64,000 bases of DNA from Thermococcus sp. (GTDB taxonomy: Archaea; Methanobacteriota_B; Thermococci; Thermococcales; Thermococcaceae). Shown here in pieces: positions 24,896 to 37,313 of the stretch (positions are counted from its first letter, which is position 1; every line of letters begins with the position of its first letter). The notes under the pieces are model-generated. The model had not been told where the DNA came from, did not search any database, and saw nothing but the letters and a program-made list of their open reading frames with translations. Location: contig NZ_JALUFF010000027.1 in NCBI RefSeq assembly GCF_027052235.1, forward strand, positions 62,001-126,000, read 5' to 3'. The position numbers and the translations under genes were made by a program.

Positions 24896-25657
24896 TCAGA
24901 GAACGTTGAGGTACTTATGCACCTGAAAACTGAGCCCGACGTTCTTTCTTCCCATTACCAGCGCGGCCTCGCGGTAGAGCTCCATAAGCCTCTCCTGGCT
25001 TATTTCAATCGGCTCTCTCGGTTGTATCGCCAGCGGTGCAAGTCCCTTTAAAATCTCCGCATACCAGCGAACGTTTTCAGCCCTCGTCTCCGAGGTAACG
25101 ACGAGCTTGGCGTAGACCTTTGCGCCTTCCCCCTTAAGAATCCTTATGCTCTCGACCTCCCTGAGAACGAGTCCTTTCCAGTCTTCCGTGGCTTTAGCCG
25201 TCTCGTCCTTTATGTCCACGCTCGCGTAGTCCACCAGAGGAGCAACCTCCTTAACAAGCTCTGGAAGACCCCCGTGGGTCTCAAGGAAGTTATCGAAACC
25301 GAGTTCTTTCATGCGCTCCATTAAGGCTTTCAGACCCTTTATCTGGAGCGTCGGCTCTCCCCCGGTGTAGCTTATCGAGTGTATATCCCCTGTATCAAGC
25401 CGTAGAACTGCATCAACGACCTCTTCAAGCGAAGCCGGATTCGGCTTATACTCGAACTTTCCGGTAAAGGGTTCTACCTCATAGCGCCAGCGGAAAACGC
25501 GGGATGCATCGATGTACTGTTTTGAGTCGCAATAATTACAGTGAAGGTCGCAACCGGCGAAGCGGACGAAAATCTGCCTTCTCCCGAAGGCTGAACCTTC
25601 GACGCTTCCCCCCTCGCCCTGCCAGCTGTTGAAGACCTCAGCCATTATGAGCCTCAT
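24896..25657 (-). CDS. queE: 7-carboxy-7-deazaguanine synthase
   Basis: 253 aa. Radical SAM enzyme that converts 6-carboxytetrahydropterin to 7-carboxy-7-deazaguanine for archaeosine/queuosine. CDLHCNYCD holds the 4Fe-4S cluster. The N-terminal FNSWQGEGGSVEGSAFGRRQ and YTGGEPTLQ motifs are characteristic. It overlaps the next upstream gene (25654) by 4 nt, so it is in an operon with two small hypothetical genes. Confidence 0.92.
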   Translation of the reverse strand: MRLIMAEVFNSWQGEGGSVEGSAFGRRQIFVRFAGCDLHCNYCDSKQYIDASRVFRWRYEVEPFTGKFEYKPNPASLEEVVDAVLRLDTGDIHSISYTGGEPTLQIKGLKALMERMKELGFDNFLETHGGLPELVKEVAPLVDYASVDIKDETAKATEDWKGLVLREVESIRILKGEGAKVYAKLVVTSETRAENVRWYAEILKGLAPLAIQPREPIEISQERLMELYREAALVMGRKNVGLSFQVHKYLNVL

Positions 25658-25920
25658 GGCTTTAACTCCTCCACGTTGAGTCCCTTAACTCTCTCGCTCA
25701 CGAAGCCCTCCAGTATCTCCACCTTAACGCTCCTCTCCTCGCCGGTCATGTCTGCCATGAGATGAACCGCTCTCGCGTAGTCCCAGAGCCTTCTCTTCGC
25801 CTCGGCGGTAACTCCCTCGGCCATGACTATCAGCTCTCTCTCCTCGGGATGGGCACTCATCCACCCTATGACCTTTTCCGCGTCCCTCTCGGTGAATACG
25901 CCCCTTTTCTTGAAGAGCAT
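25654..25920 (-). CDS. Hypothetical protein in queE operon
   Basis: 88 aa from ATG 25920 (behind GGTGGTGGGG). The ATG at 25935 overlaps the upstream stop and would add five residues. Basic and acidic, mostly helical, no recognised domain (TERDAEKVIGWMSAHPEERE). It is linked to queE by a 4-nt overlap. Confidence 0.65.
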   Translation of the reverse strand: MLFKKRGVFTERDAEKVIGWMSAHPEERELIVMAEGVTAEAKRRLWDYARAVHLMADMTGEERSVKVEILEGFVSERVKGLNVEELKP

Positions 25921-25931
25921 TCCCCACCACC

Positions 25932-26420
25932 TCATAGGTATTTGAGAAGTGCTCCAATAGCCTCCTCAAAGAGCTCCTTGTCCCTTCCCTCAAGGATTGT
26001 CTCAAGGTAGTGGACGGAGGCGATGTTGAGGATTATGTAGGCGGTGTTCCTGTCGAGGCCTAGGTTGTAGGCGTCGTAATAAACCCTCTCCTCCCCAAGG
26101 GCATCGTTCAGCATCTCGACGAAGTAGTTTATCTCCTCAACTGTTAGCTCGTCAAGCCTGCTCTCCATCTCGTCGAAATAGCGCTCGATGATGCGTATCT
26201 TCTCAAGGTCGAGCTTCAGAGTGCCCTCGACGAAGGGAAACTCCCCAACCCGAAAGACCTTCACGCCTTCATCGTCCTTTATCCCAATGTAGTCCCACAG
26301 GAGTACTCCCTCGACGGGATTATGGCCGTATTTGCTCGCCAGATAGGAAAAGCGCTCCAGAGCGGAGTCCATATCGTCTATAAACTCCTCCTCATCCCTG
26401 AAGTGTATTATCTTGCTCAC
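25932..26420 (-). CDS. Hypothetical protein, first gene of queE operon
   Basis: 162 aa from GTG 26420, which lies 3 nt after GGGTGGA; ATG 26432 and ATG 26441 are in frame. Acidic and helical (DEEEFIDDMDSALERF), no recognised domain. A TATA-like GCTTTTATAACC on the minus strand at 26461-26472 would give a TSS at about 26440. Confidence 0.62.
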   Translation of the reverse strand: MSKIIHFRDEEEFIDDMDSALERFSYLASKYGHNPVEGVLLWDYIGIKDDEGVKVFRVGEFPFVEGTLKLDLEKIRIIERYFDEMESRLDELTVEEINYFVEMLNDALGEERVYYDAYNLGLDRNTAYIILNIASVHYLETILEGRDKELFEEAIGALLKYL

Positions 26421-26515
26421 GGTTCCACCCATGTTTCGCACCGCTTTCGGTTGGGACTTGGGTTATAAAAGCTTTCGAGCCATAAGCCTTTTATCGCTTT
26501 CACTCCATCTTCCCC

Positions 26516-26630
26516 TGCCCGACGAGTATGGGGTTGCGATGACGTCGGGACCCCCAGGGGGGCGACACTTCCCACTGCCCCCCTTACAGCCCTGTAAAGC
26601 AAGTGCTGGCGAAAAAGTGTGTGCTTTTTT
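26516..26630 (+). ncRNA. GC-rich structured RNA candidate
   Basis: This is the gene-free stretch 26442-26745. It contains a GC island with three consecutive perfect stems: CCCGACG/CGTCGGG (26518-26524 with 26543-26549), GGGGGGC/GCCCCCC (26557-26563 with 26577-26583), and TTACAG/CTGTAA (26584-26589 with 26592-26597). A TATA-like CTTTTAT lies at 26488-26494, the right distance upstream, and a T6 run ends it at 26630. The apical loop of hairpin 1 has GCGATGA, similar to kink-loop sequences of archaeal H/ACA guides. No known RNA family is recognised, and the strand is inferred. Confidence 0.45.
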
Positions 26631-26703: not shown

Positions 26704-26712
26704 GGTTTATAA
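26704..26712 (+). promoter_or_regulatory. TATA box for DUF357-UPF0212
   Basis: GGTTTATAA lies 34-42 nt upstream of the GTG start at 26746, a typical archaeal promoter position. Confidence 0.55.
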
Positions 26713-37226: not shown

Positions 37227-37313
37227 GCCGGGGTAGCCTAGCCTGGGAAGGCGCGGGACTCGAGATCCCGTGGGCGTCCGCCCACCAGGGTTCAAATCCC
37301 TGCCCCGGCGCCA
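37227..37313 (+). tRNA. tRNA-Ser (anticodon CGA), CCA encoded
   Basis: Acceptor stem GCCGGGG/CCCCGGC (37227-37233 with 37303-37309), discriminator G at 37310, CCA encoded (37311-37313). The anticodon stem CGGGA/TCCCG encloses loop CTCGAGA with anticodon CGA at 37261-37263. A long variable arm (TGGGCG...CGCCCA) confirms a class II tRNA such as serine. T-loop GGTTCAAATCC is canonical. Confidence 0.95.

Follow-up and report, generated by a model that had tools for sequence, protein, structure and literature searches.

The window analysed here, a stretch of 64,000 nucleotides from a Thermococcus sp. genome, contains between a leftward and a rightward protein gene a small GC-rich island (about 26510-26600), in which G+C content reaches 68%, compared with about 40 to 50% in the flanking DNA. 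An earlier note, made from the letters of this DNA, had described such a GC-rich patch in poorer flanks and took it for the gene of a structural RNA, with a promoter of its own, in a genome of the Thermococcales. This core reading holds, as a conserved RNA of 68 nt lies behind a TATA box. The TATA-like box, which the note had put about 25 nt upstream, is found at the distance given in Table 1, and the terminal run of six T that it described is present. The RNA itself is already known, under the name of sRk28. Downstream, the TTTATAA motif is the likely promoter of the next gene, which therefore need not be co-transcribed with the RNA.

Table 1. Features of the RNA locus, in coordinates of the window
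Feature	Positions	Strand	Remarks
QueE-like radical SAM gene	24896-25657	-	Below every NCBIfam QueE cut-off
Genes of two conserved small proteins	25654-26441	-	93 and 166-169 aa; no Pfam or NCBIfam family
Divergent conserved hypothetical gene	25932-26441	-	166-169 aa; lies upstream of the RNA in 59 of the 75 loci
TATA-like box TTTTAT of the RNA gene	26489-26494	+	27 nt before 26516
Conserved RNA, almost certainly the sRk28 ortholog	26516-26583	+	68 nt; 26516 corresponds to the mapped P. abyssi 5' end
Hairpin P1, stem CCCGACG/CGTCGGG	26518-26524 with 26543-26549	+	One pair double-changed in 13 of 45 sequences
Possible pseudoknot GGGU/ACCC	26531-26534 with 26550-26553	+	Allowed in 45 of 45 sequences
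Hairpin P3, stem GGGGGGC/GCCCCCC	26557-26563 with 26577-26583	+	One pair double-changed in 22 of 45 sequences
Trailer derived from a dispersed repeat (degenerate head), with hairpin and T6 (26625-26630)	26584-26630	+	Possible terminator
TTTATAA, probably the TATA box of the downstream gene	26706-26712	+	Read from the sequence
DUF357 protein gene, downstream neighbour in this genome	26746-27033	+	Pfam check

Conservation of the RNA and its identity

Comparison of the locus with 61 genomes of the genus, and then with 94 genomes of the family, delimits a sharp conserved block of about 67 to 70 nt, which extends from 26516-26517 to the GCCCCCC of 26577-26583. Seventy-five intact loci were collected, representing 59 distinct sequences. 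The structure count and a covariance model were built from 45 of these; the 14 left out, the window's own included, have loop or stem lengths that put the 3' strand out of register. Being independent of the window sequence, the model scores 89 bits at 26517-26583 (E 3.4e-17). Strong hits, at E 4e-12 or lower, were obtained in 75 of the 94 Thermococcaceae genomes, distributed over six genera with a single strong copy per genome, while 4 genomes gave weak hits and 15 none. In the phylum set (115 genomes, including the 94 of the family) the model has no hit in the 21 genomes outside Thermococcaceae, and a contig search returned 15 contigs, all from Thermococcus, Thermococcaceae or Thermococcales MAGs. 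An AT-rich hexamer at -30 to -25 of the RNA was detected by pattern search in 59 of the 75 loci and by eye in the remaining 16 (15 TTTTAT and one GATAAA).

Over the whole window, Rfam at gathering scores recognises only a tRNA (37227-37310) and nothing at the RNA locus; with lax filters to E 10, the RNA region gives only two weak, unrelated matches. The note's impression that the sequence fits no recognised family is thereby borne out, and an alignment and a model are now given for an RNA absent from Rfam. Separately, we observed a sub-threshold match to HgcC in the locus of one relative (L059, 469-584, plus strand; 31.4 bits for a cut-off of 50, E 3.6e-4).

Three of the genomes searched are presumably those of P. 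abyssi GE5 (G064), T. kodakarensis (G012) and T. sibiricus (G078). In G064, the element lies at 527742-527798 on the minus strand according to BLAST and at 527730-527797 according to the covariance model, and the gene of a PP-loop protein is found directly behind it. For P. abyssi, Phok et al. (2011, PMC3124441) place sRk28 at 527697-527833 on the minus strand, with a 5' start at 527798 and sizes of 70/100 nt; they report a putative pseudoknot, little or no RNA in stationary phase, an adjoining gene, PAB1992, for an ATPase with a QueC-like domain, and conservation in all but T. sibiricus. In T. kodakarensis, Jaeger et al. (2014, PMC4247193) describe sRk28 as a small orphan transcript whose gene context is different: it lies upstream of TK1195, a gene with a BRE-TATA of its own. 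The start of our hit in G064 coincides with the published 5' start, on the same strand, G012 has a layout of the kind published for T. kodakarensis, and the RNA is absent from G078, in agreement with the T. sibiricus exception. From this concordance of position, strand, 5' end and distribution, we are almost certain that 26516-26583 is the sRk28 ortholog of this genome. Transcription of the orthologs in P. abyssi and T. kodakarensis has been followed by Northern blot and dRNA-seq, and is regulated by growth phase (PMC3124441, PMC4247193). In a literature search the name sRk28 appeared in seven papers, two of which concern archaea.

Fold and covariation

The covariance among Thermococcales relatives that the earlier note had proposed to look for was found, with compensatory changes in both P1 and P3 (Table 1). 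The note held that an RNA gene would be refuted if there were neither transcription nor compensatory changes in relatives; such changes occur, and ortholog transcripts are published for both P. abyssi and T. kodakarensis. The 18 pairs considered, pseudoknot included, make 810 cells over the 45 sequences, of which 99.8% pair; the two that do not are both at the ends of P1. Cells changed on both sides number 35, versus 13.6 in shuffles, and the covariation score was reached by none of 500 shuffles and is lost when partners are slid. Covariation support is good, but it is based on two column pairs, a count of doubly changed pairs that is not above that of shuffles, and the kinship of the sequences inflates such scores. 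Three further pairs, designated P1b, are invariant. Loop positions are mostly invariant in the same alignment: the P1 loop carries the invariant AGUA and GGGUUGCGAUGA, and the P3 loop starts with GACA. A pseudoknot between the GGGU of the P1 loop and the ACCC behind the stem is likely. Among the 45 sequences it shows only three one-sided changes, all to G-U, and since it is almost invariant, comparison cannot prove the pairing.

Taken alone, the window would have made a weak case. The folding energy of the region is by itself not remarkable (z -1.70, with 17 of 200 shuffles folding equally well or better; z 0.00 for the opposite strand). Moreover, the computed minimum of the window's own sequence differs from the fold backed by covariation: GGGGUU pairs with GACCCC in place of P1, at -31.3 versus -26 to -27 kcal/mol, pseudoknot terms not counted. 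Four other orthologs are computed to fold into P1 and P3. The RNA may have two-state behaviour. As to the three perfect stems in tandem described in the earlier note, the first two stand as P1 and P3 of the conserved RNA; the third, from 26584 onward, does not belong to it and is part of a repeat head.

Repeat heads behind the RNA

The sequence behind P3 is not conserved among orthologs, and in most of them the third hairpin is missing or replaced. In the window, the head of a dispersed repeat is present in degenerate form at 26584-26630, with T6 where other copies have T-runs. One of three related repeat heads lies behind the RNA in 31 of the 75 loci, starting 0 to 8 nt past P3, and the same test finds none in the other 44. 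In this genome the segment may serve as trailer and terminator, as suggested by its hairpin and T-run.

The earlier note had taken the entire stretch of about 115 nt as the RNA gene. We find instead an RNA of about 68 nt followed by a repeat-derived trailer of about 47 nt, and a repeat head with T6 directly behind the RNA would explain the length that was proposed. A single 115-nt hairpin gene was rejected on account of the third hairpin, missing or replaced in most orthologs. The broader view that the 115 nt form a single RNA gene, whose functional unit comprises all three hairpins, can draw on the hairpin and T6 immediately following the RNA and on the 100-nt species listed beside the 70-nt one in P. 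abyssi (PMC3124441). We hold it to be very unlikely, given that the sequence past P3 is not conserved, that a repeat head is present in fewer than half of the loci, and that the same heads follow tRNA genes.

Related heads indeed occur elsewhere in the genus. Exact heads of type B number 71 in the 61 genus genomes, and the neighbours of 70 of them were examined. A stable RNA gene directly precedes 49 of the 71: a tRNA in 42 cases (41 recognised by a T-arm pattern and one by Rfam), the C/D RNA sR36 in two (Rfam), and sRk28 in five (by coordinates against model hits). The other 21 lie elsewhere, most of them, as judged by eye, immediately following a start codon and its C-rich leader in antisense orientation. 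The proposal that the repeat is specific to RNA genes is consequently only partly true; what the sites have in common may be a C-rich end. Among 40 heads of types A and B sampled earlier, 33 were beside a tRNA predicted by ARAGORN, at a distance of at most 3 nt where coordinates were compared; by eye, three more resemble tRNA ends and four do not. The repeat-head loci catalogued are 26584-26630 of the window, L153-L192 and L259-L278.

An insertion of the IS200/IS605 (tnpB) type behind the RNA was also considered and rejected: no recurrent cluster of tnpB-like ORFs was found within about 1.5 kb (cluster names were assigned by eye, with a Pfam check for only some of them), and the repeat is located at the ends of tRNAs. 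Among the titles listed in literature searches, none concerned tRNA-end repeats of Thermococcus. A repeat family that is often found directly behind tRNA, C/D and sRk28 genes is relevant to the question of site choice by archaeal repeats.

The proximity of this repeat, together with several losses of the RNA, could suggest that the whole element is non-functional DNA or a repeat remnant. This is hardly credible for an element that six genera keep as a single strong copy in each genome, with compensatory changes, a constant promoter distance and published transcripts of its orthologs.

Gene context, loss and possible function

In 59 of the 75 loci the RNA has the divergent hypothetical gene beside it, and in many cases a small gene and a QueE-like radical SAM gene come next; in the window, this QueE-like gene and two genes without a recognised family form an operon-like row divergent from sRk28. 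The divergent gene is kept in 87 of the 94 family genomes, also where the RNA is lost, which rules out its product as a dedicated partner of the RNA. Downstream genes are of at least seven kinds: the DUF357/PyrG block, topoisomerase-like, ribosomal L37Ae-like, HTH-CBS, DUF2284, helicase-like and PP-loop (DUF357, HTH-CBS, DUF2284 and PP-loop were checked with Pfam, the others named by eye). Each of the 8 loci from the Pyrococcus-type genus has the PP-loop gene as its downstream neighbour.

Papers of 2011 and 2014 floated the reading of sRk28 as a preQ1 riboswitch (PMC3124441, PMC4247193), which would act in cis on the next gene. The RNA has a small, pseudoknot-like fold, a PP-loop ATPase with a QueC-like domain adjoins it in P. 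abyssi, and in the window a QueE-like radical SAM gene is only two genes away on the other strand. Against this, the RNA matches no preQ1 model of Rfam even at E 10, the PP-loop protein obtains 29 bits with the NCBI QueC model, whose cut-off is 150, the QueE-like gene is divergent and so cannot carry the RNA as a leader, and in T. kodakarensis the transcript is an orphan. No queuosine or preQ0/preQ1 gene was found in cis, neither here, where the next gene encodes a DUF357 protein, nor among the downstream kinds listed above. The downstream gene changes between lineages and the RNA does not, making a cis riboswitch unlikely; we rate the preQ1 reading as very improbable. The RNA is independent of its downstream gene, and its constant sequence before changing genes, together with several losses, weakens the published guess.

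These losses take several forms. Copies with many broken pairs are found in G079 and G084, before the same gene as in relatives (HTH-CBS by eye), with unrelated DNA at the expected promoter site; G048 has a diverged copy near the usual neighbour gene, and the copy of G041 is without an internal stretch. Beside the divergent gene, the RNA is absent with the next gene present in G035, G039 and G044, it is absent in G043, G078 and G083, and only a P3-like part is left in G075. Decayed, truncated or diverged copies were recorded at L126 96-160, L127 1176-1240, L128 1133-1191, L088 1215-1265 and L254 1465-1504. Draft assemblies may contribute to apparent losses. Having decayed or disappeared in several lineages, sRk28 is conserved yet dispensable, and its repeated loss argues against a core housekeeping role.

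A second possibility is that of a trans-acting antisense or guide RNA whose GGGUUGCGAUGA loop would pair with mRNA or rRNA. The loop is long, nearly invariant and has free nucleotides, and the layout is that of a trans-encoded RNA. Yet the longest complements to rRNA, about 10 nt, are within shuffled expectation, also when the rRNA genes are taken alone. The genome-wide search for exact 12-nt complements of one loop, outside sRk28 itself, revealed no sense target that recurs among the 20 places read, the largest recurring group, of 5, being antisense to its reading frame (by eye). A same-sense match of 11 nt between GGGACCCCCAG and 16S rRNA, present in both genomes tested, was set aside, being equalled by 8% and 2.5% of shuffles.

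Nor does the RNA have boxes of either guide class. The C box of a C/D guide (RTGATGA) lies near the 5' end and its D box (CTGA) near the 3' end, and the kink-turn consensus needs a GA on the strand opposite GAUGA. Here the only candidate is the GCGATGA in the middle of the RNA, and by eye there is no CTGA in 26516-26583. The note had suggested a kink-loop for GCGATGA; the motif sits in the P1 loop, where its GAUGA would face a single A if P1b forms, and the other strand offers AG in place of GA (by eye), so that this suggestion is not sustained and the K-turn or K-loop of H/ACA RNAs is not seen. Behind the basal stem there is no conserved ANA box as defined for H/ACA RNAs (PMC4652768): the ACA at 26586-26588 is part of the repeat head, is not conserved past P3, and the TTACA of that head is also found behind tRNA genes. 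We consider a guide or antisense role unlikely. With these tests null, the view that remains is that the invariant loop most likely meets a protein or a small molecule.

The account that we find the more probable overall is that of a free-standing sRk28 ortholog, composed of P1, a likely pseudoknot and P3, and acting in trans. Transcription would start from the RNA's own TATA box, and the RNA would fold into P1 with its large, nearly invariant loop, the loop-to-ACCC pseudoknot and the second hairpin, P3. In this genome, the transcript may run on for about 47 nt to the T6, with subsequent trimming of its 3' end. The invariant AGUA, GGGUUGCGAUGA, ACCCCCA and GACA could then be presented in trans to a protein or a small molecule; binding of such a partner as the function of sRk28 is a tentative proposal, for which we would claim slightly less than an even chance. 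More speculative, and in our opinion rather doubtful, is the idea that sRk28 founds a class of archaeal RNAs that are free-standing and pseudoknotted and act in trans as regulatory aptamers, which would bind a metabolite or a regulatory protein through the invariant loop during growth, with neither a cis gene nor an antisense target.

Among known systems, preQ1 riboswitches are similarly small and possibly pseudoknotted, and the 2011 paper remarked on shared features (PMC3124441); sRk28 differs in matching no model, in having no preQ1/preQ0 gene in cis and in its changing downstream genes. Archaeal H/ACA and C/D guides are likewise small stable RNAs, and two C/D genes also have a repeat head behind them, whereas sRk28 is without ANA box, C/D box pair and kink-turn signature. 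The Hgc and SscA RNAs of Rfam are GC-rich stable RNAs from the intergenic DNA of AT-rich hyperthermophiles of the same order, although neither HgcC/E/F/G nor SscA matches the RNA region. With published sRk28, the RNA shares position and strand in G064, 5' end, length class and conservation in Thermococcales except T. sibiricus; a pseudoknot has been proposed for the published RNA as well. The window copy is set apart by its Thermococcus-type context, with a divergent hypothetical gene and a DUF357 gene behind, by the repeat head that follows it, and by its TATA-like box, for which the 2011 paper reports no counterpart in P. abyssi (PMC3124441). A gene that was unannotated thereby gains a name and published expression data.
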